From assembly GCA_029256575.1 (NCBI GenBank), contig JAQSXR010000005.1:1-64000 (forward strand): a DNA stretch of 64,000 nucleotides. Reading direction: 5' to 3'. Below the pieces are notes generated by a model. That model did no database searches. It was not told where the DNA came from and saw only the letters and a list, made by a program, of their open reading frames with translations. Below, piece by piece: positions 7,925 through 49,545 of this stretch. A program made the translations under genes and the position numbers. Within the stretch, counting starts at the first letter, position 1; every line of letters begins with the position of its first letter. The stretch comes from Clostridiales bacterium (lineage in GTDB: Bacteria > Bacillota > Clostridia > Lachnospirales > JAQSXR01).

Positions 7925-9676
7925 CTACTTAAGGAGCTTTAACTTAATATAAAAGGTTGTTCCTTTATCTATTTCGCTTTCAACACTTATCATTCCACCG
8001 TGGTGTTCAATAATCTCTTTTGCTATCGCAAGACCTAGTCCTGTTCCACCCATAGCACGCGACCTTGCCTTATCAACTCTATAAAAACGTTCAAATATTC
8101 TAGGTAAATCTTCTGCTGGTATACCAAATCCATTATCACTAACTTTAATAACTGCATAATTATCCTGTTGCGTAACACTTACCTTAATATTTGCACCTTC
8201 TTGGCTATATTTTATAGCATTTCCTACGATATTTCTAACTACTTGAATAATTCTATTTGCATCACCTTGTACTGTAAGCTTTTCTTTAGATTCTTCATAC
8301 TGAATTGTTTGTGCCTTCTTAATTGCTTCCGCCTTATATTTTTCTACAACATCTGAAGTTAATAATGAAATATTAAGAGGTTCCATCTCAAAATTAATTT
8401 GTCTGTTATCTAATTTTGATAGCTCAAGTAGATCATGAACTAATACTGTCATTCTATCACTTTCACTATTAATAACACCTAAGAATCTTTTGGATATTTC
8501 AGGGTCGTCAATTTCTCCCACTAATAATGTCTCTGCATAACTTTTAATTGTTGTAATTGGTGTTCTTAATTCATGAGAAACATTTGCAACAAATTCTTTT
8601 TGTAATTCTTCTAATTTTTTATGTTTGGTAATATCTTGAATAACTACTATTATTCCTATATCATTTTCTTCAACAACGAATTTGTACGGAGCTAAACATA
8701 TATTTAAGTATCTATTCTTGATGCTTATAACATGCTGTTTTGTCTCCTCTGTTTCATTTAGTTCTATATCTTCTAAGTCTAGCCAATCCTCAAATACTTC
8801 CTTAAAAGTACTTTTCTTACCAATGTCAAAAAACTCACCTGATGCAGGGTTTTGATGTACAAGGCAACCTTTACTATCAAACACTAATATTCCATCCGTC
8901 ATATGACCAAATACAGCTTCTAACTTGTTCTTCTCAGCATATACTTCTGATAGTGTCTTATTTAGCTCTTTTGCCATTGTATTAAATGTCAGCGTTAATT
9001 CACCAATTTCATCCCCTGACATTGGATCCATAACTATATTAAGTTCTCCACCTGCTATTTTCTTTGCATTTTTGGTTAATTCTCTTATTGGTTGTGTGAG
9101 GGTATTCGCAAGTAATAAACCTAGTATGGATGCTAGGACCAATGCTACCACAACAGATGTAGCAATGATTAGTATTGATTGCCTTAAATTGTCCTCTACA
9201 CTTGAAGTGGTTGCCTTAGAATAAATTACATAAGCTACTTTATCTTCTACTAGAACTGGTTCAGCATAATCTCTATACTTCGTTATTGTACCATCTGTAT
9301 TTTCCATAACCCCTTTTGCTACTTCTGCAGGTTTTTTCCCGCTTATAGAAGTTACAATTACGTGCCTTAAATTCTTAGTTTTCCCCTCCATCGGGAAAAT
9401 CTCATAACCTTCATAATCATATAGTAACACTTCATAATCACTTGCAAGACTGGCTCTCCCTGAAATCGTATTAATTAATTCTTGTCTTAAGTCCCCATCA
9501 CTTGTATCACTTTCGAGACCTCGTTGAATTACCTCGATTGCTTGTTTAAGCTGATTGTCCAAGGTTTTATACGCACTGTTTCTTATTAATGTAATAATTA
9601 ACGTTCCACTTACAATCATAACAAGAATAACCATAATTACATAAAACAAAACTAACCGCGTTCTAACACTTTTCAT
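7925..9676 (-). CDS. walK: Sensor histidine kinase WalK (VicK/YycG)
   Basis: A 583-residue membrane kinase of the WalRK system that controls peptidoglycan hydrolases in low-GC Gram-positives. Two membrane segments (about 9-30 and 167-190) bracket an extracytoplasmic domain; then HAMP (190-243), PAS (about 250-350), the HisKA dimerisation box SHELRTP with phosphoacceptor His368, and a HATPase domain with an N box (NIVGNAIKYS), G1 (DNGFGIP) and G2 (GGTGLGLA). Length and architecture match WalK. It begins three bases after walR with its GAGGTG ribosome site inside the end of walR. Confidence 0.92.
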   Translation of the reverse strand: MKSVRTRLVLFYVIMVILVMIVSGTLIITLIRNSAYKTLDNQLKQAIEVIQRGLESDTSDGDLRQELINTISGRASLASDYEVLLYDYEGYEIFPMEGKTKNLRHVIVTSISGKKPAEVAKGVMENTDGTITKYRDYAEPVLVEDKVAYVIYSKATTSSVEDNLRQSILIIATSVVVALVLASILGLLLANTLTQPIRELTKNAKKIAGGELNIVMDPMSGDEIGELTLTFNTMAKELNKTLSEVYAEKNKLEAVFGHMTDGILVFDSKGCLVHQNPASGEFFDIGKKSTFKEVFEDWLDLEDIELNETEETKQHVISIKNRYLNICLAPYKFVVEENDIGIIVVIQDITKHKKLEELQKEFVANVSHELRTPITTIKSYAETLLVGEIDDPEISKRFLGVINSESDRMTVLVHDLLELSKLDNRQINFEMEPLNISLLTSDVVEKYKAEAIKKAQTIQYEESKEKLTVQGDANRIIQVVRNIVGNAIKYSQEGANIKVSVTQQDNYAVIKVSDNGFGIPAEDLPRIFERFYRVDKARSRAMGGTGLGLAIAKEIIEHHGGMISVESEIDKGTTFYIKLKLLK

Positions 9677-9679
9677 TGT

Positions 9680-10384
9680 CTACACCTCTTCATTATTAAA
9701 GTAATAGCCAATCCCTCTTTTAGTCAATACATACATTGGTTCCGCAGGGTTATCCTCTAACTTTTCTCTTAACCTTCTTATCGTAACATCAACTGTCCTG
9801 ACATCACCAAAGTATTCATATCCCCATACCTTTTCAAGCAACTGCTCTCTAGAAAAAATTTGATCTTTATTTCCTGCCAAAAATTTTACTAGTTCAAATT
9901 CTCTAACTGTTAAATCAACGGTTTTCCCTCGTTTTAATATTTCAAACCTTTCTATATCTATTACAATACTTCCGTATTTCGTTTTTTTACCATCACTTAT
10001 TTCTACTTTATGTAATGTATCAACAACCGTCCTTCTTAAGTTGGCTTTCACTCTCGCCATTAGTTCTCTAACTCCAAATGGTTTCGTTACATAATCATCC
10101 GCACCGAGTTCTAATCCAAGTACTTTATCAACTTCTTCCGCTTTTGCTGTAAGCATTATGATAGGAGTACTAAAGTTTTTTCTTAATCTCTTACAAGTTT
10201 CGATCCCATCTAGTCTTGGCATCATCAAGTCAAGTAGAATCAATTCAGGGTTTTCTTTCTCAACTTTCTCGATAGCCTCAATTCCGTCATAGGCTAGAAC
10301 AACTTCATGTCCTTCTTTTTTTAAGTTAAATTCTAATATGTCAACAATTGCTCTTTCATCATCCACAACTAATATTTTTGCCAT
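9680..10384 (-). CDS. walR: Response regulator WalR (VicR/YycF)
   Basis: A 234-residue OmpR/PhoB-family regulator: receiver domain with the acidic pair Asp8/Asp9 and phosphoacceptor Asp52 (LLDLMMP), then a winged-helix DNA-binding domain ending in VRTVDVTIRRLREKLE and RGIGYYF. In Bacillus the protein binds two TGTWAH hexamers spaced by five bases and controls wall hydrolase genes. It opens the walRK-yycHI operon and is directly downstream of an M23 endopeptidase gene of the kind WalR commonly controls. Confidence 0.92.
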   Translation of the reverse strand: MAKILVVDDERAIVDILEFNLKKEGHEVVLAYDGIEAIEKVEKENPELILLDLMMPRLDGIETCKRLRKNFSTPIIMLTAKAEEVDKVLGLELGADDYVTKPFGVRELMARVKANLRRTVVDTLHKVEISDGKKTKYGSIVIDIERFEILKRGKTVDLTVREFELVKFLAGNKDQIFSREQLLEKVWGYEYFGDVRTVDVTIRRLREKLEDNPAEPMYVLTKRGIGYYFNNEEV

Positions 10385-10517: not shown

Positions 10518-12083
10518 TTAGTTACTAATATATTTTACTGGATTTACTGTTACTGAATCAAAAATTAATTCGAAATGTAGGTGATTTCCTGTACTTCTTC
10601 CAGTTGAGCCTACTGCACCCAATTTTTCATTTTGTGCTAACTTTTGTCCAACTGAAACTGAAATCGAGCTAAGATGTGCATATCTTGTTTTAATTCCATT
10701 TCCATGGTTAATAACAACACATTTACCGTAAGTTCCATTCCAGCCTGCTGCTATTACCGTTCCTCCATCAGATGCAACTACTGTTGTACCATATGGTGCT
10801 GACCAGTCTACACCTGAATGAAATGCGCCATTTCTATATCCGTATGAAGAGCTTGTTACGCCACCTTTGATTGGTCTTATATATTTGCCTGTTGCTACTC
10901 TTTGTGGCAATGCTTTTGTTCCTTTTTCAACTTTTTTTGCTACTGCTTCTTTTATAATTGTTTCAGAAGTAATTTCTGTTTCAATTACTTTTCCATTTGA
11001 TTTCTTTTGAATCGCTTCAAATTCTTTTACACCTTGTGAGCCATTTCGTATAACATTTTGGTTACCTTTATATAGACTTGCATTCTCAACATATTCAACT
11101 GGAACAGAATAATTCTCAGTATAAGTTATAGCTTCTAAAGTAATAAATGATAGTTTTGGTTCTGGAACAACAACTGTTATTTCTTGATCTATTGCTAGAA
11201 CTGATGTTTCCGTCATACCTGCATTAATCGCAATCAAACCTTCAATTGATGTATTATAATTTCTAGCTATTCCAGATAATGTATCGCCAGCTTTAATAAC
11301 ATATGTTTTATTCGCTTCTTTTTCCATTGTTATGTCTGCTACCGCATCTTCAATTGTTTTAATTTGATCTGATTTTACAAATACTTGACTTATCATAACG
11401 TTACTTCCAAATTCAAGACCTAATATTGGTGCTTCTGAAATTGGGTCAGCTGATGCAACTGGTTCTCCTGTTGATGCTGTTGTCATAACAAATGATTTTG
11501 CTTGAATCTCATTTTTAATAATACTTGATTTGAGTACAGCTTGCGTATATGCACTTTCCTCTAATTCAATATAAAACTGATTTGCAGGATCGTATTTTCC
11601 TTTAGAATAGTTCAGTACTGCTTCTGCAGCTTCTTGATTTTCAAGTACTACAGAATAATCATCTATAGTTATCATAATTGCTTTTTGTTTACTTTTATCA
11701 ACATTAGAGTTCATTACTTTATATACTTTATCTTTAATACTAACTTTCAAGACATCTGCATATGCTTCTTCCGCGATAAATTCTATTTCTGATTCAAGTA
11801 ATAAGTCCTTACCTGTTTTCTCTATTATCTGAGCTTTTACTTCGGATACAATTGTGTAGGCATCGAGTTCGTTTGAAACGAATCCAACTTCTTCTCCTTG
11901 TACAAGTACTCTATATACAGGAATTTGTGTCTTAACAAAAGCACTCATCATTCCATTCCCATTATTATTAACTATCACATTATTTATAGTAAATATTGAG
12001 GCCGCTGCCACTGACAACGTAACCGCTATTACTTTGAACTTCTTGAAAACTCTCAGCTCACTATATTTCGATATACCGTTCAT
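10518..12083 (-). CDS. Secreted LysM/G5/M23 cell-wall endopeptidase
   Basis: A 521-residue exported protein: an N-terminal membrane or signal segment (about 18-37), a LysM peptidoglycan-binding motif (YVIKAGDTLSGIARNYNTS, about 260-305), a G5 domain (about 310-390) and a C-terminal M23 metallopeptidase. The peptidase keeps the zinc ligands in HSGVDW and NHLHFE. Such proteins cut peptide cross-links in peptidoglycan and are typical targets of WalR. It lies just upstream of walR in the same direction but has its own terminator. Confidence 0.9.
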   Translation of the reverse strand: MNGISKYSELRVFKKFKVIAVTLSVAAASIFTINNVIVNNNGNGMMSAFVKTQIPVYRVLVQGEEVGFVSNELDAYTIVSEVKAQIIEKTGKDLLLESEIEFIAEEAYADVLKVSIKDKVYKVMNSNVDKSKQKAIMITIDDYSVVLENQEAAEAVLNYSKGKYDPANQFYIELEESAYTQAVLKSSIIKNEIQAKSFVMTTASTGEPVASADPISEAPILGLEFGSNVMISQVFVKSDQIKTIEDAVADITMEKEANKTYVIKAGDTLSGIARNYNTSIEGLIAINAGMTETSVLAIDQEITVVVPEPKLSFITLEAITYTENYSVPVEYVENASLYKGNQNVIRNGSQGVKEFEAIQKKSNGKVIETEITSETIIKEAVAKKVEKGTKALPQRVATGKYIRPIKGGVTSSSYGYRNGAFHSGVDWSAPYGTTVVASDGGTVIAAGWNGTYGKCVVINHGNGIKTRYAHLSSISVSVGQKLAQNEKLGAVGSTGRSTGNHLHFELIFDSVTVNPVKYISN

Positions 12084-12458: not shown

Positions 12459-15224
12459 CTATCTAACTGTTTTTTCTATCGTGAAATCTTTTACAAGGTT
12501 TCCAGATGCATCTTTTAAATAATTTGGATTTTGAACATAAATCTTAACGATATCTCCTGCTTGAACATATTTACCTTTATTAAAACCAGTTGATAATTTT
12601 ATTACTGCAGTATCACTGCTACTAGAATCTGCTCTCATTTCCACACTATAATCATTGCCTGGTATTAGTTTACTTCCATTAATTTCAATAATAATATCTG
12701 TAGCAAAATACACTTGATTCATCGGAGTTAACCCCTCATCAAATTTTATCCTGATTAGCTCTGGAATATCTCTATTTATTAAGGCATTTCCAGAAGTAGT
12801 TAATACTGTAGGTGCTATTCCATCTCTTATTGTGTATAACATTTCAGATGAAACAAAATTTCCTTTTTCAGTCTTAATTGTTTCTGGCATAACGGATATT
12901 CCCCTAGAAACTTTACTTGATGAAAATTGCATGTCAAATGTCGTAGTCAATAATAATGTTGTTTTTCCTTCAACTATATCTTTAATCACAGCCTTAGCAA
13001 TATATTCTTTGGCAACTCCATTATTGTCTAATAGTCTAAAGTTTTGTGCCTCAATTCCACTTGCTAATACTCCGTCTACTACTAGTTCTAATTGGTTATT
13101 TGAAACAGTTTTAGAACTAATTAAATTTGCATATCCCATCTTAGTCCATACAACAGTAGTTGATAGTTGCTTAATCTTGTTTCCCATTAAATCTTCAATT
13201 TGACCCATTTGAAGGGCTTGACCATCAATGATTCTGTCTGCAAAAGTTAATTTTAACGTTCTTGGTTCTGAAGCATTTTCAATTAAGATAGGAAAATTAT
13301 TACCCAACACCCAATTCTTTAGTACATATGCCGTTCCATTTACCTCTTCACTGAATGTTATAAATATGGTCTTATCAGCGACAATTGCTTCAGCTTTTAC
13401 AACTACTGGTGGAGTTGTATCTGGTATCATCGTCTCTATGGTTGTCGTTACTATTTTATTTCTTAGTGCAGAAATATCCTCTATATTTTGTACTAATATA
13501 GTGTATTTACCACCTTGAATAGCATTTATAAAACGAATTGTTACCGTTTTTGATGCATTATCATAAACCTGTACTCTACTATCGGTTACAATTTTATTAT
13601 TCGAATCTTTAATTACATAATTAACTCCATTGATAGCTGAACTAGGTTCTAATTCTTCACTAAAATATAGCACTACGTCTCTGTTATCTTTAATATTATT
13701 TTTCAAGATAACCGGAGGAATATCATCCGCGTATGCTCTTATTTTTATAGCTACTGTAGTCTGTGTCTTTATTCCCCAGTATGTTTCAAGTTTTGATGAT
13801 AAAACAAATAATTCTTGTTCATATTGAGGTGCAATCGGATATTTCAAAAATAGAAGATCATATGTTGTCTCATTAATCTTGAATACTTGATCTGGTTTAT
13901 TATTAGGATTTCCCCAATAAAAATCATCAACTGTTAATGCGTTCTTAATCTCTTTATCTAATACTATAGTTAATTTGTTTGGTGTAACTTGCCCTTTTAC
14001 AGATATCGTAACAGGTTCAACGTCAACTTTATATATAAATGATCCTGCATAATCTTGCATGATTAAACTTTCATAATCACGAGCACCACTAACTTTTATT
14101 TCATTATTTGAATTTGGTGGGACAGATGAACTAAGTTGTACTTTCACTTTTCTTCCAACTGGTTGAGCTACGATACAATAATATTCTCCATTGTTTATCT
14201 TTACGGTTGGTTTCTCAGCAGTGAATATTGGTTCTGAAAAAGTTATCTCGATAACATCCTTCTTAACAGTTTCAATTTTAGTTACTGTAGGAGGTGTAGA
14301 ATCAATAATGTTCGATAATATTACTTGTTTGTCGGAAGGAATTCCCACTTCCTTCTTCACAGTTACAACCATATTACCTTGTCTTTCAATCTTACTCTTC
14401 ATTAATAATATTGCTGTATTGTTCTCTAGTGTTACATCAACAACATTGTTATTATTAATTATGTAATTATCCTTTTGTAATACTGTTTCTTCATTAATTG
14501 TTCCAGTATAAGTAACTGCAACTTCATAATAATTAGAAACAACAATATCCTTAACAGCTAATTGTTTTTGAAGTTTTGAGACTAACCCAAATTCTTCTGC
14601 TTTAGATTGTAATGATGGTTTAACGGCAATTATTTGCTCAATAAGAGTCTTGTCACTACCATTTGGTTTGACTAACAATGAAGCATAGAAATATTCAACG
14701 ATATCATCTCTAATCAATGTTTTTTCAGCTTTATTCTTAATATCACTATCAATACGAACAGCTGTTGCATAATCAATCAGACCAATTTGTCTTGCTATAA
14801 ATATATTATTATATGGATTTTCATATCCAAGTTCTCTCGTAATCCATGAAATAACTTGTCGTTCCGTTACTTCACTATTGCCACCGAATCGTCCATTTCC
14901 AATACCACTTGTAACCCCTCTGTCATAGGCAGTTGCAACTGCTGACTTCGCCCAATCCGATACATCTAGAAATGTGCAATTTTCTGATCCTAATAATTGC
15001 CACCCAAATATCTTTGACAACATTATCATTGCTTGTTCTCTATCCGTTTCACCCTCTAGATATGGCACATAAGAAATTGAACTTTGGCCAGAGAATAATC
15101 CCAATTGATAAAGTCGTAAAGCCTTTTCGTCGTTTATTGTTTCCGCACTTGAACTGATACTTAATGTCGGAATACACATAACAACTGCAATTAAGATTAC
15201 TAATAATTTCTTTAATTTATTCAT
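12459..15224 (-). CDS. SLH-domain surface protein with Ig-like repeats
   Basis: A 921-residue exported protein: signal peptide (about 1-27), SLH-type region (about 30-190) that would bind secondary wall polymer, then several SbsA-type Ig-like units, each opened by a TPPxV-type turn (DSTPPTVTKIE, DDIPPVILK, DTTPPVVVKAE, DGIAPTVLT). It shares layout and length with the two tandem S-layer proteins upstream but is clearly diverged and less Ala/Thr-rich. The AAGGGGG ribosome site and the 57-base gap to the O-antigen ligase gene suggest co-transcription with it. Function: a minor S-layer or cell-surface structural protein, by inference. Confidence 0.8.
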   Translation of the reverse strand: MNKLKKLLVILIAVVMCIPTLSISSSAETINDEKALRLYQLGLFSGQSSISYVPYLEGETDREQAMIMLSKIFGWQLLGSENCTFLDVSDWAKSAVATAYDRGVTSGIGNGRFGGNSEVTERQVISWITRELGYENPYNNIFIARQIGLIDYATAVRIDSDIKNKAEKTLIRDDIVEYFYASLLVKPNGSDKTLIEQIIAVKPSLQSKAEEFGLVSKLQKQLAVKDIVVSNYYEVAVTYTGTINEETVLQKDNYIINNNNVVDVTLENNTAILLMKSKIERQGNMVVTVKKEVGIPSDKQVILSNIIDSTPPTVTKIETVKKDVIEITFSEPIFTAEKPTVKINNGEYYCIVAQPVGRKVKVQLSSSVPPNSNNEIKVSGARDYESLIMQDYAGSFIYKVDVEPVTISVKGQVTPNKLTIVLDKEIKNALTVDDFYWGNPNNKPDQVFKINETTYDLLFLKYPIAPQYEQELFVLSSKLETYWGIKTQTTVAIKIRAYADDIPPVILKNNIKDNRDVVLYFSEELEPSSAINGVNYVIKDSNNKIVTDSRVQVYDNASKTVTIRFINAIQGGKYTILVQNIEDISALRNKIVTTTIETMIPDTTPPVVVKAEAIVADKTIFITFSEEVNGTAYVLKNWVLGNNFPILIENASEPRTLKLTFADRIIDGQALQMGQIEDLMGNKIKQLSTTVVWTKMGYANLISSKTVSNNQLELVVDGVLASGIEAQNFRLLDNNGVAKEYIAKAVIKDIVEGKTTLLLTTTFDMQFSSSKVSRGISVMPETIKTEKGNFVSSEMLYTIRDGIAPTVLTTSGNALINRDIPELIRIKFDEGLTPMNQVYFATDIIIEINGSKLIPGNDYSVEMRADSSSSDTAVIKLSTGFNKGKYVQAGDIVKIYVQNPNYLKDASGNLVKDFTIEKTVR

Positions 15225-15281: not shown

Positions 15282-16922
15282 CTAGTTAAAAGTTCCATTT
15301 TTATCTGCAATCTCTTTTGTAACTCCACTATTTGTTAAAGACATTGTTATTGCAAGAAGCGGCCATAACATAACTTGAATAGCTATCATATTGTCATTTG
15401 CAAGTCCCTGTATAAGGTACGTAACTAATAGAAGTAAAACTGCAGTTACAAATGTACCTACTTCTTTGTTGTTTTGACCCTTTAGTTTGTCTGCTATTTT
15501 CCACATCAACCCTATGATTACTGTAAAAAATCCAATTAATCCGATAAACCCAATGTCTGTAATATACTGTAAATACATGTTATGTGGTCTATCTATTACT
15601 ACATCAATTTGATACACATCATTCTCTGCTTCCTGCGGGAATTCATAATAAAATTTATCCGGTCCAACCCCGACTAACGGATTTTTCTTTATTACATCCT
15701 GTGTATAATGCCATATATATCCTCTTTGTGAAAATATCTCTTTATTATTTGGAATTACTGTTTTTAATACGATTACAAATCCAATAATTCCGATTATTAT
15801 CCCTAGTACACTTGATATTTTGATTATTTCACTAACGTATTTTTTGATAAGTGGTCTAACAATTATAATTACTACTATAAATATTACTGCAGTAACTATT
15901 AATATCTTACCCATTTTATTTGCTACAACTTTCTTCAAAAATTCAATTACTTCATTCAATGCTAATCCCAGTGTCATACTATTGACTTTATAAATTATGT
16001 AAGAACCAATACCACACAACAATACGAATTCAATGATATTTTTTCTATTCACAGCTACAACTATAAGTAATGGGACAATTATTAATAGTGTTAATACAGC
16101 AGTAAATGCCTGCGCTATCGCTAAACCAGTAATTGTCAAAAGTACCCCTATATAATAATAACTTTTTAAAATAATATTGCGTTGTTTAAGAGCGAGGGTT
16201 GCGATAAATGGGAAATATATTATACAGAAGGCTCCAAAATAATTCAAATTCTGTAGCATTGATTCAACTTTAAAATACTTTGTTCCATTAAAAGGCAGTT
16301 TGGATGTAGTCAATGTCAATTTTATCCCTTTCGGTGTGACAATTGTCTCAAACAACTTTGTCTCTGCTATATTATGTCCGAAAAATTGAAATATTCCGAT
16401 TACGCACATTGCTATTACTACAAAGTTAATAATCACTACTATATACGTTAAGTTCTTTTTACTTATGCAAAGCTGAGAGATGGCATACGTTAACATATAA
16501 ATCACTAAATATGCTAATAATCCATTTCCTTTCTCATATGATCCCCACCATTTATTTTCTTGTACAGGTGACATGAGCGTAGATATTATCGATATTACAA
16601 CTATAATACCAAGTCCAATCGTTATGTAATCTAACCTAGGCATAATATTGTACACGATAGTCCTATATAATAAATAGCACAGTATAGCCCCCACTAATAA
16701 TGCTAATAAATATACTTTTATATGAGTATATAAATTTACAAGACTTAATCTGTTTATTTTATCATAATATAAAAAATCACTTAAGATAGTTGCATGTACT
16801 GCAAAGCTTATTAATGCTAGAATTGGCATTAGTATGTATATTATTATTTCGTCTTCATGAGCTATTTTCTTGGCATAATTTTTAAATAAATATTTCTTTT
16901 GTTTGGTAACTTTATGTTTCAT
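15282..16922 (-). CDS. O-antigen ligase / polymerase family membrane protein
   Basis: A 546-residue integral membrane protein with about 12-14 hydrophobic segments and, between late helices, the large extracytoplasmic loop of the Wzy_C family (PF04932), with the conserved VGVGPDKFYYEFP and RPHNMYLQYITDIGFIGL stretches; the Arg-x-His pair is the family's key motif. Members ligate or polymerise lipid-linked glycans, and some transfer them to proteins. Its place inside a set of S-layer genes suggests S-layer or wall-polymer glycosylation, which is inference. It has its own strong promoter. Confidence 0.8.
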   Translation of the reverse strand: MKHKVTKQKKYLFKNYAKKIAHEDEIIIYILMPILALISFAVHATILSDFLYYDKINRLSLVNLYTHIKVYLLALLVGAILCYLLYRTIVYNIMPRLDYITIGLGIIVVISIISTLMSPVQENKWWGSYEKGNGLLAYLVIYMLTYAISQLCISKKNLTYIVVIINFVVIAMCVIGIFQFFGHNIAETKLFETIVTPKGIKLTLTTSKLPFNGTKYFKVESMLQNLNYFGAFCIIYFPFIATLALKQRNIILKSYYYIGVLLTITGLAIAQAFTAVLTLLIIVPLLIVVAVNRKNIIEFVLLCGIGSYIIYKVNSMTLGLALNEVIEFLKKVVANKMGKILIVTAVIFIVVIIIVRPLIKKYVSEIIKISSVLGIIIGIIGFVIVLKTVIPNNKEIFSQRGYIWHYTQDVIKKNPLVGVGPDKFYYEFPQEAENDVYQIDVVIDRPHNMYLQYITDIGFIGLIGFFTVIIGLMWKIADKLKGQNNKEVGTFVTAVLLLLVTYLIQGLANDNMIAIQVMLWPLLAITMSLTNSGVTKEIADKNGTFN

Positions 16923-17058: not shown

Positions 17059-19812
17059 TTAGTCAACTACTTTAATTGTTTTTTCGAATGCTGCTAATGC
17101 GTTACCTGCTGCATCTTTAGCATAGTTTGAAGATTTAACTAATGAAACTGTTACTTCTTTATCTTTTTCTACTTTATCAATTGTTAAAGTAATTGTTAAG
17201 TTAGCTCCAACTGCAACTGTGTAATCATTACCAGCTACTAGTACTTTGCCATCATATTTAACTACTAATTCAGTTGCAAGTAATCCTTTTGCATCTAAAA
17301 CTGTTTCAGTAAATGCTACTGTTGCAGTCTTGCTTGCTACTGTTGCTTTTAAGTCGCCAGTAACTGTAGGTGCAATTTTATCTGCTACTGTTTGAACCAT
17401 AGCTTCTAATTTAACTCCACTGCTAAGAACTAAGCCAGTAGCTTCAACTCTTACTTGTTTTGAAGTGTTTAATGCTTCTGCATTAACTTTGTATAATTCT
17501 GGAAGAGCTATTGTTATTACTGTACAAGTTACATCATTGATATCTTTAACTTCTACATTCTTAACTGCTGCTGCAGTTGCAGTCTTAGTTGCAGTATCTC
17601 CAACGAAGTCTACTAAGAAAGCTGTAGTTGCAATACCTTCAGTAACTCTACCTGTAACTACTAATTCAACTGTTTGAGCATCTAATGCTGCAGCTGTCAT
17701 TGTAGTTGTGCTAGCAATTACGTCTGAAGCTGTTAAAGCTGCAAATGTAACACTAAGTTTAGCGCCTTTTAATGAATTTCCATCTACGTCATTGATTGCT
17801 GTTGTAGTTACTACTAAACCAGCAATTGCAGTATCTTCTTTTAATGTGATTACAACAACTTTAGTTGAACCTTCATCAAATGATACTGATTTAATTTCGC
17901 CAGCTGATACTGCCCATTTAGCAGCGTCAGTTGTTGTAGCTAACATACTGTTTGTATATGTTACATAAATTTTGCTTGTTTTTGTTGCATCAGCAGCTTT
18001 AACAGCTTTAACTGTTGCATCTAATAATCTCATATATTTAGTAGCGAAAGTGATCTTTGTTTCTGCAACTTTGTTTCCTGAAGCATCAGCGATTACATCT
18101 TTCTTAACTACTAATGTACAATTTTCTGATGCGAATGCATCTTTATTGATTGCTAATGTAAATTCTTTAGCATCTTTGTTTGTGATAGCTGTACCAGTTA
18201 CAAATGCGCTAGAAATAACTTTGCCATCTGCACCTTGGATTTCATAGTTAGCATATGTTGAAGCTCCAGTTGTAACAACTGCTTCGTTATAAACTACTAC
18301 TAATTTACCATCTGCTTGTTTAACTTCTTTAATTCCAACTGTAGGAGCTGTTTTATCAATTACAACTGTAAATGATAATGTGATATCTGCAGCTGATTTA
18401 TTTCCCCATGAATCTTCGAACATTTCGTCTGCTTTTTTGATTGTTAATGTCCAAGTACCTTCTGGAGCATTATATCCTGTAAAGTCAAGAGTTACTTCTT
18501 TTTTATCTGCTGATAATGTTGCTGAAGTTGGAACTTGATTTAAGATATAAGTAAAGTTTGCTACGTTAAGAGCTTTAACAGTTGCTGCGCTTAAAGAAAG
18601 AACAACTTTCTTTGAGTCTGCTTCTTTAACTGTTACTGTTATAGGAGCTTTAACTGCTTCATATTTGTAAGCTTCGATTGTCTTTGGAGCCATTGTGTAA
18701 CCAGCGAAGTCTTTAGCGCCAGAGATTTCAAGTTTGTATTCTTTTCCATCTGTTGCTGAAGAAACTGTAGCTACTACTGTTCTAAAGTCAGCACTTACTG
18801 CACTAACTGAAGCATATAACATACCATTGTCAACTTTTACTGAAATAACTGATGCTGGATCAATTGCTTCTGAGAAAGTTACTGTTAACTTACCTTTGTC
18901 AGTTGTTTTAACATCAACTACTACAGGTAATGTTGCATCAATGATTGATAAGTCTTTCTTTTCAAATTTGTAAGTATCTTTTTCGTAGTTAAATGTAACT
19001 TTAGCTTGTGCAGTTAATGCAGTTGCTAATACTACTGTAGCTTCTTTTTTGTCAGCGCTTAAAGTAACGTTAGTTACTGCAACACCAGCAAATTTGTAAG
19101 CTGCTTTGTCATCAGATGCTTCTTTAGAAAAAGTAACTTTTGCTTCTTTGTAGTTTAATAATTCTACTGAAGTAATTACGTTTTCAGTTACAGGAGCTTC
19201 TTTTAATCCAGCTGCTACTGCAGCTTCTTCTGTTACAACGCCAGCTTCGATTAATTTATCAAGTTGAGTTGTTCCAGCGATTTCAGTTGTAAGAATTGTA
19301 ACCATACCTGTAAAGATATCGCTTCTCTTAGCTGGAGTTCCTTTTGTTGCGATAACTGCTGCTACTTGATCAGCTGATAATATAGCTGATAATAATGATG
19401 GGTTAGCCCATGCGCTTGCAGTATCACCAGTTAATGCTGCATAGATCCAAGCATATACTTGTAATGCATCCATTTTAACTGTTCCACCGAATTTGTTGTT
19501 TCCAACGCCTGCAGTGATACCTTTTTTAACTAATGTAGCTGCTTGAGCTTTAGCCCAAGTTGCATCTGCAAATGTGTAAGCTGTAGCTGGTTCTACGTCC
19601 CAGTTCATAACTTTAACAACGATTTGAGCTGCTTCTGCTCTTGTGATTGTACCGTTTTCCATTAAGTCTCCAGCTTCGTTACCAGCTATTAAACCTAATG
19701 CTTTAAGTTTTTCACCACTAGTTTTTTCTTCTGCAGCAAATGCAACTGTAAATGTAGATACAGTCATAACAACCGCTAAAACTAGGGCAAGAATTTTTCT
19801 AAAATTCTTCAT
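17059..19812 (-). CDS. S-layer protein with SLH region and Ig-like domains (copy B)
   Basis: A 917-residue exported protein with a signal peptide ending near AFAAE (about residue 27), an SLH-type region (about 30-200) for wall anchoring, and a long array of Ig-like/SbsA-type domains (for example DKTAPTVGIKE and DKIAPTVTGD). It is very rich in Ala, Thr, Val and Lys with few Trp and almost no Cys, and uses a narrow codon set (GCT, GTT, ACT), as strongly expressed S-layer genes do. A near-perfect promoter, a GGAGG ribosome site and a strong terminator surround it. It is a tandem paralogue of the gene upstream. Confidence 0.85.
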   Translation of the reverse strand: MKNFRKILALVLAVVMTVSTFTVAFAAEEKTSGEKLKALGLIAGNEAGDLMENGTITRAEAAQIVVKVMNWDVEPATAYTFADATWAKAQAATLVKKGITAGVGNNKFGGTVKMDALQVYAWIYAALTGDTASAWANPSLLSAILSADQVAAVIATKGTPAKRSDIFTGMVTILTTEIAGTTQLDKLIEAGVVTEEAAVAAGLKEAPVTENVITSVELLNYKEAKVTFSKEASDDKAAYKFAGVAVTNVTLSADKKEATVVLATALTAQAKVTFNYEKDTYKFEKKDLSIIDATLPVVVDVKTTDKGKLTVTFSEAIDPASVISVKVDNGMLYASVSAVSADFRTVVATVSSATDGKEYKLEISGAKDFAGYTMAPKTIEAYKYEAVKAPITVTVKEADSKKVVLSLSAATVKALNVANFTYILNQVPTSATLSADKKEVTLDFTGYNAPEGTWTLTIKKADEMFEDSWGNKSAADITLSFTVVIDKTAPTVGIKEVKQADGKLVVVYNEAVVTTGASTYANYEIQGADGKVISSAFVTGTAITNKDAKEFTLAINKDAFASENCTLVVKKDVIADASGNKVAETKITFATKYMRLLDATVKAVKAADATKTSKIYVTYTNSMLATTTDAAKWAVSAGEIKSVSFDEGSTKVVVITLKEDTAIAGLVVTTTAINDVDGNSLKGAKLSVTFAALTASDVIASTTTMTAAALDAQTVELVVTGRVTEGIATTAFLVDFVGDTATKTATAAAVKNVEVKDINDVTCTVITIALPELYKVNAEALNTSKQVRVEATGLVLSSGVKLEAMVQTVADKIAPTVTGDLKATVASKTATVAFTETVLDAKGLLATELVVKYDGKVLVAGNDYTVAVGANLTITLTIDKVEKDKEVTVSLVKSSNYAKDAAGNALAAFEKTIKVVD

Positions 19813-19870: not shown

Positions 19871-19899
19871 ATTATAACACCCCATTTTTAACCAGTCAA
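19871..19899 (-). promoter_or_regulatory. Sigma-A promoter of S-layer gene copy B
   Basis: On the minus strand TTGACT (19899-19894), 17 bases, TATAAT (19876-19871). It lies about 60 bases before the start. Confidence 0.85.
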
Positions 19900-19914: not shown

Positions 19915-19931
19915 TGTAATATTGTTGTAAT
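19915..19931 (+). promoter_or_regulatory. 11-bp-spaced TGTAAT repeat (WalR- or PhoP-type box) at S-layer copy B
   Basis: TGTAAT, five bases, TGTAAT, reading on the plus strand (ATTACA repeats on the coding strand), 15 bases upstream of the -35 element. This matches the known WalR consensus TGTWAH-N5-TGTWAH; the reverse reading resembles PhoP repeats. Confidence 0.6.
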
Positions 19932-19992
19932 TTTTCCATTTTTGTATGTAATATTTCCCTTTGTACTCGTCCTTATCAATATTTTAGCATAG

Positions 19993-20022
19993 CAAAAGAG
20001 GCCAAATACTTGGCCTCTTTTG
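19993..20022 (-). terminator. Terminator of the upstream tandem S-layer gene
   Basis: A perfect 13-bp stem (19993-20005 with 20010-20022, loop ATAC), with GGCC core and A/T ends. Confidence 0.88.
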
Positions 20023-20058
20023 TCTATAATAACCTGTTTCGATATTGTTGATTTTTAA

Positions 20059-22815
20059 TTATTGTGCTTTAGCAGTTAATTCAAATGCGTTTAATGCGTT
20101 TTGGTTAGCATCTTTGATGTATTTTGAACTTGATGCTAATTTAACTGTTAAGTCTTTACCTGTAATATCAGTTGTAGTGTCTACTAATGATACTGTAATT
20201 GCTGATCCGCTTACTAATACTGTGTATTCGTTACCAGCTACAAGTACTTTACCATCTAATGTAACTACTAATTCAGTTGCGAATAATGCGTTCTTAGTTG
20301 CATCACTTACAAGTGCTTCATTTACAGCAAGTGTTGCTGAATGAGTTGCAGCTGTAGCTGTGATAGCTGTTACTGTTGAAGCGATTCCATCAGCGATTGC
20401 TATTGATGATGCTGTATCTAATGCTACGCCATTGTTTAATTTTAATCCAGCTACTTCTAATGTTACAGCACCTTTTGTGTTTTCTCCATTAGAGTCAAAT
20501 TTCATTTGTTCTGGAACTGCTACTGTAAATACTGTAGTTACAACTCCGCCTTCTTCTTTAACATCTACGTTTGTAATTACTGCTGCTGTTGCAGTTTCAG
20601 TTGCTACTGTAAATTTGAATGCGTCTGTTGAGATACCAGTTGTTACTTTACCATTTACTGTTACTTGTACAGTTTGAGTTGCTGTAGCTTTAGCAATAAT
20701 TGTTGGTACTGATGTTTCAAATGTTACTGCTGCATTGTTTACTACTACTGCGCTTAATGTAGCACCTGCTAATTTATTTCCATCAACGTCTGTGAAAGCT
20801 GTTGTTTCAAGAGATACGTTAGCATTTGTAAATTCTGCTTTTGTTGTTACAACGATTGTCTTTGTTGAACCTTCGTCAAATACGATTGAAGTAATTTCTT
20901 GTGATACTCCACCTACAGATAGAACCCATTTAGAAGCGTCTACTGTTGATGATGGCATATTGTTTGAGAATGTAATGTATAATTTGTTTGTTTTTCCAGC
21001 TGTAGTTTGGATAGCTTTAACTGATGCAATTAAAGTATTCATATATTTTGCTGCGAAAGGAAGTTTAACGCCTTCTGCTAAAGCATTTCCTGCTTTGTCA
21101 GTAATCGCTTTATTAACAACTAATGTATATCCTTCTGAAACAAATTTTGTTTTGTCGATTGATAATGTGTATTCGTTATCAACTACTGTGATAGCTGTTC
21201 CAGTTGCTAATGCGCCTGTTACAGATTTACCGTCTTTATCTTGGATATCATAGTTAGCATAGTTTGTAGCATTTAATACTGTTTCACTAAACTTAACTAC
21301 TAATTTGTTATTTGCTTGGTCTAAAGATTTGATTTCAACTGTAGGAACTACTTTATCGATAGTTACTGTGAAAGTTAAAGTGATATCTTTAGCTGCTTTA
21401 TTTCCCCATGAATCTACGAACATTGTATCTGCATTAGCAACTTTTAATGTCCAAGTACCTTCTGGAGCTGCGTAGTTTGATAAGTCAAGAGTGATTAATT
21501 TACCATCAGCTGAAACAGTTGCAGCGTTAACTGCTTTGTTTAAGATGTGAGTAAAGTTAGCTGCAAGAACGTCAGCTTGTAATTTAACTGTAGCTGCGCT
21601 TAATTCTAATACTACTTCTGAAGTGTTTGCTTCTTTAACTGATACAGTTACAGGAGTTTTTACTGCTTCATATTTGTAGCTTTCAAATGTCTTTGGAGCC
21701 ATTGTGTAACCTGCAAAGTCAACTGCGCCACTTACTTCTAGTTTGTAAGATTGACCGTCTACTGCTGAGTTAATTGTAACTTTTACTTGTCTTGAATTTA
21801 ATTTAGCTACTGATGCATATAACATTCCATTATCTACTTTAACTGCTGGTAAAGTTTCAATTGCTTCTGAGAAAGTAACTGTTAATTCACCTTTGTTTGT
21901 AGTTTGGATATTAGCTACTGTAGGTAATGTTGCGTCAATAATTGTTAAATCAGTTTTTTCGAATTTATATTCGCCATTTACGAATGCTACTGTTGCTTTT
22001 GCTTGAGGTGCAACTTTAGTAGCGATTTCTACGATAGCTTCTTTTTTGTCTTCGCTTACTTTAACTGCAGTTGCTGCAACGCCATTGATTGTATATTTTG
22101 CTGCATCATCTGAAGCTTCGTTTGTGAATACAAATTTAACTTCTTTATAGTTTAATAGTTCTGCTGAAACAACAACGTTTTCAGTTACAACTACTTCTTC
22201 AACTAATCCTGAAGCAAGAGCAGCTTCTTCTGTTACTTTGCCAGCTTCGATTAATTTGTCAAGTTGAGTTGTTCCGTCAGTACCTTCAGTTGTAAGAATT
22301 GTAACCATACCGCCAAATACTTCGCTTCTCTTAGCGTTAGTACCCTTTGCTTCGATTACTTCTGCAACTTTATCTGCTGGAAGAATAGCTGATAATAATT
22401 GTGGATTAGCCCAAGCACTTGCAGTATCACCTGTTAATGCAGCATAGATCCAAGCATATACTTGTAATTGATCCATCTTTTGAGTTCCACCAAATTTGTT
22501 GTTACCAATACCATTTGTTATTTTGTTCTTTACTAATGTAGCTGCTTGAGCTTTTGCCCAAGTATCATCTGAAAATGTGTAGCTGCTAGCTGCTTCTAAA
22601 TCCCAGCCCATTACTACTGATACGATTTGAGATGCTTCTGCTCTAGTTATTGTAGAGCTTTCCATTAAGTCGCCACTTTCATTTCCCTTAATTAGTCCAA
22701 GGACCTTAAGAGCTTCGCCGTCTGTCTTTTCTGCTGCAAATGCTACTGTGAAAGTAGATACTGACATTGCTACAGCTAAAACAAGGGCAAGAACTTTTCT
22801 AAAATTCTTTTTCAT
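20059..22815 (-). CDS. S-layer protein with SLH region and Ig-like domains (copy A)
   Basis: A 918-residue exported protein, colinear with the gene downstream from signal peptide to C-terminus: nearly identical leader, the same SLH region (TRAEASQIVSVVMGWDLE, NNKFGGTQKMDQLQVYAWIY), then Ig-like domains. Shared blocks such as VDNGMLYASV and GYTMAPKTFESYKYEAVK show recent common origin, with the C-terminal third more diverged. Codon use is biased as in the other copy. Its upstream region carries two further 11-bp-spaced repeats. The pair probably supplies the main S-layer lattice, perhaps under different conditions. Confidence 0.85.
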   Translation of the reverse strand: MKKNFRKVLALVLAVAMSVSTFTVAFAAEKTDGEALKVLGLIKGNESGDLMESSTITRAEASQIVSVVMGWDLEAASSYTFSDDTWAKAQAATLVKNKITNGIGNNKFGGTQKMDQLQVYAWIYAALTGDTASAWANPQLLSAILPADKVAEVIEAKGTNAKRSEVFGGMVTILTTEGTDGTTQLDKLIEAGKVTEEAALASGLVEEVVVTENVVVSAELLNYKEVKFVFTNEASDDAAKYTINGVAATAVKVSEDKKEAIVEIATKVAPQAKATVAFVNGEYKFEKTDLTIIDATLPTVANIQTTNKGELTVTFSEAIETLPAVKVDNGMLYASVAKLNSRQVKVTINSAVDGQSYKLEVSGAVDFAGYTMAPKTFESYKYEAVKTPVTVSVKEANTSEVVLELSAATVKLQADVLAANFTHILNKAVNAATVSADGKLITLDLSNYAAPEGTWTLKVANADTMFVDSWGNKAAKDITLTFTVTIDKVVPTVEIKSLDQANNKLVVKFSETVLNATNYANYDIQDKDGKSVTGALATGTAITVVDNEYTLSIDKTKFVSEGYTLVVNKAITDKAGNALAEGVKLPFAAKYMNTLIASVKAIQTTAGKTNKLYITFSNNMPSSTVDASKWVLSVGGVSQEITSIVFDEGSTKTIVVTTKAEFTNANVSLETTAFTDVDGNKLAGATLSAVVVNNAAVTFETSVPTIIAKATATQTVQVTVNGKVTTGISTDAFKFTVATETATAAVITNVDVKEEGGVVTTVFTVAVPEQMKFDSNGENTKGAVTLEVAGLKLNNGVALDTASSIAIADGIASTVTAITATAATHSATLAVNEALVSDATKNALFATELVVTLDGKVLVAGNEYTVLVSGSAITVSLVDTTTDITGKDLTVKLASSSKYIKDANQNALNAFELTAKAQ

Positions 22816-22931
22816 GTTTACTTCCTCCTATGATGTCTCGCGTTGTTTTTTACAGACTAATGCCTGCACTAATATGTGTCCACCAATATCTTCACTTACA
22901 TAATACTATGTAGTAACTACAATCAATTGTT

Positions 22932-22948
22932 TGTAGTATTGATGTAAT
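22932..22948 (+). promoter_or_regulatory. Degenerate TGTAGT-N5-TGTAAT box at S-layer copy A
   Basis: Same layout as the box at copy B with one departure (TGTAGT). It is followed, toward the gene, by only a weak promoter (TTGATT, short spacer, TATTAT), as expected when an activator is needed. Confidence 0.45.
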
Positions 22949-22995
22949 GTGATTATATCTTGGAACAATATTTTTTACAATACTTTTTGACAACT

Positions 22996-23012
22996 TGTAA
23001 TGTTATTGTAAT
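22996..23012 (+). promoter_or_regulatory. TGTAAT-N5-TGTAAT box at S-layer copy A
   Basis: A perfect pair of TGTAAT hexamers five bases apart on the plus strand, 64 bases upstream of the previous box (start to start). WalR-type by consensus; PhoP-type is the alternative. Confidence 0.55.
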
Positions 23013-23041: not shown

Positions 23042-23901
23042 TTAATTGTTCCATATGTTGGTAATTGCACTTCCAAAATATGTCGTAAACTTCTTTGCGC
23101 CAGCTTCATTTAAGTGTCCTTTATCATAAAAGTCCTTATCTATATCAATTCCTATCTCTTCATACAGCAAGTTATAATTAATAAATTCAACTCCATATTC
23201 CTTTGCAAATTTATCTACACTATTATATAACATCTGTTCTTCTTTACTTGGATTGCTTGGACTCTTAATTAATAATAGTTCAATTCCCTTCTCATTCAAT
23301 AGCTTAACTATTTTCTCAAGATACTCTAAACATACCCTCGTTCACTGTCCGTCTGTTTTAAATAATCGATTGAAAAATCTGATTTCTTAAGTTCTTTCCA
23401 TCTAGAATGATACTTAATAAATGAGAAGTAGTAGGATGCCCTATCTTTTTTGGGGATACTCACTTTAATTGCCTGTATCTTTGTTTCAGAAAAAGTAATA
23501 TTGTCCAATGCAGTCCTGTTCGTTCCTTCTGCTGCGTATTCATCTTCAAGTGCTAATTCTCGAACATCAAGAACAATTAGTTTTGGACTTTGGTATTTTA
23601 AAAACTCTTCTATATAGAAATAAGTAACCCACATTGGTTGTTGCGATGTCGTAAATGTATACCCCTTAACCCCTGTTTCTTCCTCTAGTTGACGCGGAAT
23701 TATGGAGCAATACATATGACTTGTTCCGCCAAACATAATATCATAAGAATCTTTCTTTTCATTGTATATTCCATTCACTTTAATTGTTGTATTCCAAGGA
23801 ACTGATAGTAATTTTTGTTTAAATATCTGCGTTAAAATCCCGAATATTATAGAAAACAAGGCAATAAAAATTATTGGCTTTATTATATGTTTTATCTTCA
23901 T
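23042..23901 (-). pseudogene. SGNH/DltD-like cell-surface protein, frameshifted
   Basis: Two frames make up one gene. The N-terminal frame (23326-23901, 191 residues) has a membrane anchor (about 8-25) and the SGNH block-I-like GGTSHMYCSI (Ser61); the C-terminal frame (23042-23299 and further upstream in frame) has LEYLEKIVKLLNEKGIELLL and the catalytic DKGHLNEAGAKKF. The first frame ends in RGYV, where intact relatives, as far as I know them, continue for several dozen residues before the LEYLEKI helix, so an out-of-frame internal deletion near 23325-23340 is likely. The protein would have worked with the MBOAT enzyme encoded 26 bases upstream to acylate a wall polymer. Confidence 0.7.
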
Positions 23902-23927
23902 ATGTCCTCCTTAATAGAATTTAGCAA

Positions 23928-25397
23928 TTAGAATTGAAAATATATAAATTGTGATGCATCGTACCCTGGTCCATATATGCCAAAAATTAATATTGCAAAT
24001 ATTGCAACTAAATAGATTGACCATCTTACTATTATATTTTGTTTGTTTAGCTTGTCCCTAAAACTATTATTTCTACGAATCAAACTTACGATAAACAAAA
24101 TTAATATTGCAATCATTGCCACAATAATATCGTATTTATCCAATCCTAATTTTATCAAGGTCGATATGTTTAGTGTAGAGAAGTCTATAATAAACATATT
24201 TGCTATTAACTTCTTTGCATCTGCTAAACTGTTTGCCCTGAAAAATATCCAACCGAAATTTACTAATGCAAATGTAAATAAGATCATAAATAATTTATGA
24301 ATCTTATTGTTTCTATTTATATGAAGAAACCCAATTATTTTATCTCTTGCTGGCTTTGTAATACTCCCTATTATTTGATAAATTCCATGTAGAGCTCCCC
24401 ATATTACGAATGTCCAATTTGCTCCGTGCCATAGTCCGCTCGTAATGAATACTATCAATATATTTCTATATTGTTTTAATTTTCCCTTCCTATTCCCACC
24501 AAGCGGGATATAAAGGTAGTCTTTAAACCATGTACTCAATGAAATGTGCCAACGACGCCAAAATTCAGCTATTGATTTTGAAAAATAAGGTCTCTTGAAG
24601 TTTTGCATAAGTCTGAATCCCATTACTTCTGCTGCACCTCTTGCAATATCAGAATACGAGGAAAAATCACAGTAAATTTGAACAGCAAACAAAACAGTCG
24701 CTATCATAATTGCGATTCCTTTGTTTTCGTTTGGATGATTGTAAACTGAATTTACTAATATGGCTACTCTATCGGCTATTACAAGCTTTTGAAAGAACCC
24801 CCATAGCATTAATAGTAGTCCTCGCTTAATTCGATTGTATTCCATATAATGTCTTTCGTTAAACTGATCTAATAAGTCTTTGGATCTCTCAATAGGTCCC
24901 GCTACAAGTTGAGGAAAAAAAGATACAAATAATGCATACTTACCTAAATTTCTTTCTGTTTTTACATCTCCTCTATACACATCCATTGTATAACTAAGCG
25001 CTTGAAAGGTATAAAAAGAAATGCCTACTGGCAACAAATAGTTAAAAGCCGGCATTTCAATAATTATATCAATTTTCCCTAGTGTCAGGGAAATACTTGA
25101 CATTAAGAAATTATAGTATTTAAAAGTGAATAAGATTGCCAAGTTAATTGCAAAACAAAGGAACACCCACAGCTTCTTTTTAGCTTTTGAGTCTCCTGCT
25201 TTTTCTATTAAAAGACCACTTAAATAAGTGATAAAAGTTGAAAGCGCCATTAGTAGAGCGTATTTCGGGTTCCAACACATATAAAAATAATAACTTGCAA
25301 CAAGTAGCCATACCCATCTTATTTTATGTGGAATTAGAAAATATACGAATACTACGATTGGAAAAAATATAAGAAATTGCAATGAATTAAATAACAT
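23928..25397 (-). CDS. MBOAT family O-acyltransferase (AlgI/DltB/PatA-like)
   Basis: A 489-residue polytopic membrane enzyme that moves an acyl group across the membrane onto an extracellular polymer. It shows the family landmarks: FPQLVAGPIER, FCDFSSYSDIARG, FWRRWHISLSTWFKDYLYIPLGG and the WHGANW motif containing the active-site His. Length is normal. The partner SGNH gene next to it is broken, so this enzyme may lack its cognate transfer protein. A second MBOAT with an intact partner lies at 28.6-31.2 kb. Start ATG at 25397 with AGGAG. Confidence 0.88.
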   Translation of the reverse strand: MLFNSLQFLIFFPIVVFVYFLIPHKIRWVWLLVASYYFYMCWNPKYALLMALSTFITYLSGLLIEKAGDSKAKKKLWVFLCFAINLAILFTFKYYNFLMSSISLTLGKIDIIIEMPAFNYLLPVGISFYTFQALSYTMDVYRGDVKTERNLGKYALFVSFFPQLVAGPIERSKDLLDQFNERHYMEYNRIKRGLLLMLWGFFQKLVIADRVAILVNSVYNHPNENKGIAIMIATVLFAVQIYCDFSSYSDIARGAAEVMGFRLMQNFKRPYFSKSIAEFWRRWHISLSTWFKDYLYIPLGGNRKGKLKQYRNILIVFITSGLWHGANWTFVIWGALHGIYQIIGSITKPARDKIIGFLHINRNNKIHKLFMILFTFALVNFGWIFFRANSLADAKKLIANMFIIDFSTLNISTLIKLGLDKYDIIVAMIAILILFIVSLIRRNNSFRDKLNKQNIIVRWSIYLVAIFAILIFGIYGPGYDASQFIYFQF

Positions 25398-29751: not shown

Positions 29752-29783
29752 ACATTATATTTATTATCCTTATGGAGGTTATT

Positions 29784-44373: not shown

Positions 44374-44409
44374 AAGTAACCCCTCTCCCTTTGCCTCATT
44401 TTCAAAATA

Positions 44410-45105
44410 TTACTCAATGGAAAATGTGTAACCTACACCTCTTACCGTTTTAATGTATTGAGTAGATTCTGCAGTCAATCCAAGCTTAGATCTCAGGCTT
44501 TTAATATGTACATCTAAGGTTCTTGTTTCTCCTATAAAATCGATTCCCCATACTATATTTAAGAGTTCTTCTCTTGGAACAACTCTTTGTCTATTGTTAA
44601 CTAATATCTTAAGTAAGTCATATTCTTTTAGCGTTAACTCAATTTGGTTACCATTCTTATATACCGCATGTTTATTTAAATCAATTTGCAAATCGTATAC
44701 TTCAATTGATTCTTCTAACTTTTGTCCTCTACCTTCACTTCTTCTTAATACCGCTCTAATTCTGGCACCAATTTCTAGGATTCCAAAAGGTTTTGCAATA
44801 TAATCATCAGCTCCTAAATCCAATCCCTTTACTTTGTCTGTTTCATTCCCTTTTGCTGTTAATATTATTACTGGTATATCAACATAATTTTTATTTGATT
44901 TAAGTCTTTTTAATGTTTCCATTCCATCAATTCCAGGAAGCATTATATCTAACAAGATTAATTTAGGGATTACTTCTTCTATCTTAATCAGCATCTCTTC
45001 TGCACATTCAAATGCTTGAACTTGATAGGAAAATGAAGTAATTGTACATTTTAAGACTTCTCTAATATTTTCATCATCCTCAACTACAAAAATTGGTTGA
45101 TCCAT
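44410..45105 (-). CDS. phoB: Response regulator PhoB/PhoP
   Basis: A 231-residue OmpR-family regulator: receiver domain with Asp10/Asp11 and phosphoacceptor Asp53 (LLDIMLP) and a winged helix with TRTLDVHIKSLRSKLG and RGVGYTF. It is linked to phoU and phoR, so it should bind the tandem repeats upstream of pstS. In Firmicutes the same protein is usually named PhoP. Confidence 0.88.
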   Translation of the reverse strand: MDQPIFVVEDDENIREVLKCTITSFSYQVQAFECAEEMLIKIEEVIPKLILLDIMLPGIDGMETLKRLKSNKNYVDIPVIILTAKGNETDKVKGLDLGADDYIAKPFGILEIGARIRAVLRRSEGRGQKLEESIEVYDLQIDLNKHAVYKNGNQIELTLKEYDLLKILVNNRQRVVPREELLNIVWGIDFIGETRTLDVHIKSLRSKLGLTAESTQYIKTVRGVGYTFSIE

Positions 45106-45125
45106 ACAATTCCCCCCTACTCTCT

Positions 45126-45788
45126 TTAGAATATCCTAGTTTTTTTGTGTTCTCCTGTAACATACAATGTAACCCATTCACAAATATTTGTTGCATGATC
45201 GCCTATTCTCTCAAGATATTTTGCAATCATCATAATATCAATGGCCTGTTCTGCTTTAGCAGGTGATTTAGATAGATATTCAATTACATCCATTCTAACT
45301 TTCAAAAATAAATTATCTACGATATCATCATCAACGATTGTCTCTTCCGCAAGGGTTAGGTCACTTCTTATAAATGCATCAATTGAAGAATGAACCATTG
45401 CTATTGCTGCTTTTGCCATTGGAGTCAAGTGAGTAGCAATTTCGATAAGATCACTTCCATCGAAATGCAAGCTAAGGTCTGCTATATCTGCAGCTTGGTC
45501 GCCTATTCGTTCCATATCTGTTATTATCTTTAAAGCAGTAGATATTGCCCTAAGGTCAGTTGCTACCGGTTGTTGACGAAGAAGTAGTGTAATACATCTT
45601 TGTTCGATAGATTTTTCCATTTCATCAACATCATTATCATTCATAATAATTTCTTTTGCAAGTACTTTGTCTCTATTTTCTAGTGCCATCACCGACTGCT
45701 CTATTCTTTTTTCTACTAGGTTACCCATTCTTACAAGTTCATTATTTAATTCTTCAAGTTGGCTTTCAAAACTAGCTCTTCTTGTCAT
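45126..45788 (-). CDS. phoU: Phosphate signalling protein PhoU
   Basis: A 220-residue all-helical protein of two PhoU repeats (each with the E/D-rich metal-binding pattern, for example ITDMERIGDQAADIA and AKYLERIGDHATNICEW). It couples the Pst transporter to PhoR and limits phosphate uptake. It lies between pstB and phoB in the same operon. Confidence 0.93.
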   Translation of the reverse strand: MTRRASFESQLEELNNELVRMGNLVEKRIEQSVMALENRDKVLAKEIIMNDNDVDEMEKSIEQRCITLLLRQQPVATDLRAISTALKIITDMERIGDQAADIADLSLHFDGSDLIEIATHLTPMAKAAIAMVHSSIDAFIRSDLTLAEETIVDDDIVDNLFLKVRMDVIEYLSKSPAKAEQAIDIMMIAKYLERIGDHATNICEWVTLYVTGEHKKTRIF

Positions 45789-45850
45789 ATTACTAACCTC
45801 CTAATATTATATATTTATACTATTTTTATATTTATATCTAATTTTATATA

Positions 45851-46612: not shown

Positions 46613-46616
46613 CCTA

Positions 46617-47471: not shown

Positions 47472-47484
47472 GTGATACCTCCTA

Positions 47485-48435: not shown

Positions 48436-48494
48436 ACCGGTCTCCTCTCATAAATCTTTCACTCATACCAACCTTCTCAAATAAATCCTTAAAT

Positions 48495-48523
48495 GCACTG
48501 TAATCGCCATGCGAATACAGTGC
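48495..48523 (-). other. Stem-loop between pstS and pstC
   Basis: GCACTGTA and TACAGTGC arms with a TCGC/GCGA inner stem across one A-A mismatch, without a T-run. Likely an mRNA-stabilising or processing hairpin, or weak attenuator, that keeps pstS transcript abundant. Confidence 0.55.
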
Positions 48524-49506: not shown

Positions 49507-49545
49507 GGTAAATAGTTTGTAAAGTTTTTGTAAAGTTATGTATAA
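49507..49545 (-). promoter_or_regulatory. Pho box upstream of pstS
   Basis: On the coding (minus) strand: TTATAC, TTTACA, TTTACA and TTTACC, each separated by exactly five bases (49545-49540, 49534-49529, 49523-49518, 49512-49507). This is the PhoP/PhoB direct-repeat pattern TTHACA with 11-bp period. A -10-like TACAAT lies at 49474-49469. Confidence 0.8.

Follow-up and report, generated by a model that had tools for sequence, protein, structure and literature searches.

Throughout the class Clostridia, a single arrangement of two short repeats recurs before surface-layer (S-layer) genes at a fixed distance to their start signals. Its consensus layout is DTTACA-N5-DTTACA-N14/15-TTGAC-N18-TATAAT, mostly with an extended -10 TG. 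The paired repeats, called the box here, probably form a conserved S-layer promoter operator. A regulator of the OmpR/PhoB family, with phosphorylated WalR as the likeliest candidate, would bind there as a dimer and thereby activate the main S-layer gene.

The layout was analyzed from a 64,000-nt stretch of Clostridiales bacterium contig JAQSXR010000005.1 (the window, to whose positions all coordinates refer), which belongs to a genome of 3.11 Mb. Two tandem S-layer protein genes lie on its minus strand, gene 1 at 17059..19812 (917 aa, SLH-like by sequence) and gene 2 at 20059..22815 (918 aa), and their products are 60% identical. Neither gene gave a Pfam SLH match above the cut-off; the signal peptide, the SLH-like N-terminus, the tandem paralogy and the relatives point to the S-layer role of both. 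A diverged SLH + Big_5 paralog, the fourth of the set (12459..15224, minus strand, 921 aa), does have a Pfam SLH match. It lies 57 bp behind an O-antigen-ligase gene, and so directly after another gene, and no box was found upstream of it.

The ligase-like gene itself (Wzy_C, 15282-16922) sits amid the S-layer genes, with S-layer glycosylation or wall polymer ligation as possible roles. Between the S-layer cluster and walR is a gene for a LysM-G5-M23 peptidoglycan hydrolase (10518..12083, minus strand). An MBOAT acyltransferase gene (23928-25397, within the region 23326-25397) and a second gene that is MBOAT-like by sequence only (29772-31205, within 28603-31205) each adjoin a gene for a membrane or secreted partner, and both regions are probably concerned with wall-polymer acylation.

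Read on the coding strand, here the minus strand, gene 1 is preceded by ATTACA-N5-ATTACA-N15-TTGACT-N17-TATAAT and gene 2 by ATTACA-N5-ATTACA-N15-TTGTAA-N17-TATAAT. At gene 1 the distal hexamer occupies 19926..19931 and the proximal one 19915..19920, 15 bp upstream of the -35 (TTGACT, 19894..19899); an extended -10 TG stands before the -10 (TATAAT, 19871..19876). The corresponding elements of gene 2 are a distal hexamer at 23007..23012, a proximal hexamer at 22996..23001, again 15 bp upstream of the -35 (TTGTAA, 22975..22980), and the -10 TATAAT at 22952..22957. A third paralog on contig C42, 49% identical, is headed by GTTACA-N5-ATTACA-N15-TTGTGT-N17-TATAAT. No extra in-phase repeat was seen on inspection within the 15-bp gap. 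When the upstream regions of genes 1 and 2 were compared, a 21-bp stretch covering the box was the sole common sequence, and the flanks were unrelated. Gene 2 carries a further pair, ATTACA-N5-ACTACA (22932..22948, minus strand), 3 bp past the -10 and over the inferred transcription start. As a weak candidate repressing site, this pair could possibly damp expression.

On the opposite strand the repeats read TGTAAT-N5-TGTAAT. An earlier, sequence-only reading of the window had placed an exact copy of this pair at 19915-19931, another at 22996-23012 and a one-change copy at 22932-22948; all three were confirmed, the last as TGTAGT-N5-TGTAAT. Both genes satisfy the WalR consensus exactly, with two TGTWAH hexamers and 5 bp between them.

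The repeats alone are not distinctive. Matches to the pair with up to two mismatches numbered 26 in the window against 26.9 expected. The genome-wide scan for TGTWAH-N5-TGTWAH that had been proposed as a check gave a divided answer, since the bare consensus behaved like chance (63 matches versus 64 in the reversed control), while the box combined with a promoter went far beyond chance. The exact TGTAAT-N5-TGTAAT pair occurs seven times in the genome versus once in the control, and four of the five copies outside the S-layer promoters are inside genes. The sole other intergenic copy (L001:1501-1517; G000:C42:265314-265330) has the WalR (direct) orientation and precedes a -10-like sequence.

The complete layout was followed through relatives. 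Homologs in other families of the order were picked by protein search alone, blind to the motif, and the box was present at L039, L041, L042 and L050 exactly and at L040 with two mismatches. When 39 genomes of the order were scanned for the pattern with up to three mismatches, each usually gave one to three matches, and control matches were few. Across the class, the box with its promoter was found at no more than one mismatch in 93 of 391 Clostridia genomes, at a frequency of about one per genome; the reversed control gave none. The extended -10 TG, which the pattern did not ask for, was kept in 73-74 of 76 cases.

A separate scan left the gap between box and -35 free to vary from 4 to 30, and at least 79 of its matches covered 60 bases. 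Among the 148 parsed matches listed, the gap was 15 in 91, 14 in 20 and 13 in 6, with a thin scatter otherwise, so that 111 of these 148 had a gap of 14 or 15. A minor group among the matches listed stood at 24-25, roughly a turn of the helix beyond the main peak. In a sample, the additional matches with gaps of 14-15 were chiefly before SLH genes, while gaps of 6, 21, 24 and 25 had other genes downstream, one of them encoding an NlpC/P60 hydrolase. Five near-identical copies of TTACA-N5-ATTACA with a gap of about 24-25, on contigs C43, C46, C72, C82 and C85 of genome G404, are probably a repeated element. A second conserved box with a gap of 14 was noted in several genomes of family f76 (L348-L350, for example G381:C1:1176569).

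Genes downstream of the class-wide matches were classed by reading the N-terminus (a signal peptide followed by SLH-like or large secreted sequence), with Pfam applied to a sample. Among the 89 that could be read, the product was an SLH protein or another large secreted surface protein in 75. Several families of the order have a non-SLH gene behind the box, and its product has a C-terminal Cu_amine_oxidN1 domain in the Pfam sample. The box thus tracks a role rather than one protein family, because genes with this ending carry it also. At L258, L260-L264 and L276, large secreted proteins ending in Cu_amine_oxidN1 replace the SLH proteins behind the box; such proteins are candidates for a new S-layer protein type. 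The remaining 14 class matches precede non-surface genes, and those in families f41, f80 and f83 recur within the family. In f41 (L351 and L352), a box variant with a gap of 13 recurs before a membrane H+-pyrophosphatase gene. In f83 (L213 and L214), the box with a full promoter stands before a pseudopilin gene, and neither genome has a clear WalR ortholog.

The candidate WalR (YycF) ortholog is encoded at 9680..10384 and a WalK-like histidine kinase at 7925..9676, both on the minus strand. That walRK lies in the window had been claimed before, and the genes at 7925-10384 are indeed best matched by the WalK and WalR models, both below the curated cut-offs. WalR scored 337.6 bits against the YycF equivalog, 2.4 short of the cut-off of 340, with the next family at 243; the kinase scored 462.8 against a curated NCBIfam cut-off of 725. 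The two genes after walK match no Pfam or NCBIfam model, and their place in the operon fits YycH/YycI.

The box often lies near walR. The 51 box genomes compared include 30 in which the two are on different contigs, and the linkage counts rest on the other 21, where they share a contig. In 18 of these 21 the distance is 5-41 kb, and the remaining pairs are 93-188 kb apart. At L267, L268 and L106, walR adjoins the S-layer gene. This linkage may be inherited synteny. A clear WalR was missing from box genomes G053, G391 and G111, and from family f83, in which genes of other kinds follow the box.

The same hexamers appear at recognised Wal targets in the relatives, namely the wal locus and NlpC/P60 promoters. 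Within 80 named walR loci, 45 of 68 exact pairs lie just behind walK, and TGTAAT-N5-NGTAAG-N5-TGTAAY-N5-TGTAAY-N10-TATAAT stands directly behind walK in 42 of the 73 loci that reach that far. This four-repeat promoter, seen among L058-L137, is about 2.5-2.8 kb past the walR start and has a gene for a small exported protein (about 145-260 aa) downstream; it is likely to be an autoregulated wal promoter. The wal locus of the window lacks it, because the next gene starts 15 bp after walK. The hexamers of the S-layer promoters run in the direction opposite to those of the wal promoter. The arrangement TATAAT-N5-TGTAAY was found at six distinct NlpC/P60 promoters versus one of 1052 control upstream regions. 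At L313, L320, L321, L323, L324 and L329, TGTAAY stands 5 bp past the -10 of NlpC/P60 genes, in some with a further in-phase repeat, and looks like a repressing site. These hydrolase promoters were seen in relatives; a search of the window's own genome gave no NlpC/P60 match.

WalR of S. aureus activates from sites upstream of the -35 and represses from sites within or downstream of the promoter, and orientation is irrelevant (PMC10746227). By this rule, the position of the boxes at both S-layer genes, 15 bp upstream of the -35, fits activation by WalR. The promoter architecture and its neighborhood thus favor WalR over PhoB as the putative binder of the S-layer box. The sequence-only reading had held that a regulator of the OmpR/PhoB family is likely to act on these genes, which would connect the surface layer with wall or phosphate status. 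Conservation and linkage strongly support the regulator and the tie to the wall, but not the tie to phosphate.

A less probable reading, though the best placed of the alternatives, is that the box is bound by some other, perhaps uncharacterised, OmpR-family regulator specific to the S-layer. About one box per genome resembles a dedicated switch, and many genomes hold several WalR paralogs near 50% identity. Against this, the inspected loci showed no other response regulator that was regularly close to the S-layer gene, and both the walRK locus and hydrolase genes have the hexamers as well.

Somewhat less likely again is binding by the pst-linked PhoB (PhoP), with S-layer expression tracking phosphate status. 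PhoB belongs to the OmpR family and uses 11-bp repeats, and a PhoB-like response regulator, identified by model match (44410..45105, minus strand), forms with a PhoR-like partner a pair that lies with the pst genes at 42646-49425 in the window. DTTACA, the coding-strand form, is similar to TTAACA, the Pho repeat of Bacillus. Because the sites of WalR and of Bacillus PhoP are approximately each other's reverse complement, the hexamers alone cannot tell the two regulators apart. The layout and the distribution of the regulator speak against PhoB. The ATTACA repeats had been thought close to the Pho repeats upstream of pstS, and the pst promoter does carry TTTACA repeats (TTTACA-N5-TTTACA-N5-TTTACC, 49507..49534, minus strand); this array is nevertheless T-first, with three repeats in a row and no N15, unlike the S-layer box. 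In place of a TTAACA/CTGTCA-type array near the -35, as a Pho box would show, the boxes of this genome have two A- or G-first hexamers 15 bp away. Among the box genomes compared, 0.1-2.2 Mb separate PhoB from the box where both share a contig; elsewhere PhoB lies on a different contig or was not found. At E<=1e-50, 10 of 64 box genomes gave no PhoB match, and full-length PhoU is also missing from all 10 such genomes tested, including the one-contig G311, so that the box occurs in several genomes with neither; G363, a congener of G311, has PhoU together with the same box. Finding these hexamers again at hydrolase genes and in the wal locus further disfavors PhoB. A link of the S-layer to phosphate status is therefore not upheld, as PhoB is mostly distant from the S-layer gene or not found and the pst layout differs.

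It is very unlikely that the repeats act like an UP element, contacted by the alpha subunit of RNA polymerase at a very strong promoter. The region is AT-rich and upstream of the -35, and S-layer promoters are strong, but the C that never varies within TTACA, the exact 11-bp spacing of the repeats and their place at -51 to -67 are unlike a usual UP element, and hydrolase promoters carry these hexamers downstream of the -10. An origin by chance in AT-rich DNA, or by copying in the tandem gene duplication, can be dismissed almost entirely: the loose motif is no commoner than in the control, but the layout spans many families with zero control matches and a sharply fixed gap, and duplication was rejected as the source of the motif when the promoter flanks of the two genes failed to align beyond 21 bp.

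Compared with known systems, the box resembles WalR (YycF/VicR) sites, TGTWAH-N5-TGTWAH, in having two hexamers with an 11-bp period, RTTACA being the reverse complement of TGTAAY, and it shares a place upstream of the -35 with the sites of WalR-activated S. aureus genes. It differs in lying on the opposite strand, in its fixed 14-15 bp to the -35 and in being tied to S-layer genes, whereas WalR studies in Bacilli have dealt mainly with hydrolase targets. Bacillus PhoP and E. coli PhoB Pho boxes likewise consist of head-to-tail repeats of similar hexamers with an 11-bp period. Their arrays tend to be longer and to adjoin or overlap the -35, and three repeats are found at pstS in the window. 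The S-layer box has two hexamers and no more, set 15 bp from the -35, and PhoB appears dispensable by distribution. In C. difficile, according to the available part of PMC9210968, the WalR level alters expression of six S-layer-family (cwp) genes; these WalR-responsive proteins belong to the Cwp type rather than the SLH type. The site searches in that part of the report used WalR motifs from Bacilli. It describes no common S-layer promoter layout, and it cites a suggested influence of WalRK on S-layer genes in B. anthracis. No description of a class-wide S-layer promoter layout or of linkage between S-layer genes and walRK was found in the open-access literature searched. The regulator family and its site are already known; the conserved S-layer-specific architecture is the new part.

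In the proposed mechanism, a head-to-tail WalR dimer would occupy the two hexamers at about -51 to -67 from the inferred start and, always on one helix face relative to RNA polymerase, contact the enzyme and activate transcription. If the signal of WalK is wall growth, S-layer output would follow wall growth, and NlpC/P60 hydrolase genes, with related sites that cover the start, would respond in the opposite way. Activation at the S-layer genes, repression at the hydrolase genes and the nature of the signal are all predictions of this model. We give even odds to a broader proposal: that in Clostridia the main S-layer gene has belonged to the core of the WalR regulon since ancestral times, that the box marks it whatever the protein family (SLH or Cu_amine_oxidN1), and that WalR raises S-layer proteins and lowers hydrolases by site position alone.

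The finding bears on how bacteria keep production of their most abundant surface protein in step with growth of the wall. A class-wide promoter layout that often lies close to the genes for an essential regulator of the wall makes this question testable. If the box marks the S-layer gene across protein families, the promoter could be used to find unknown S-layer proteins, as a sequence tag for those with no recognisable domain.
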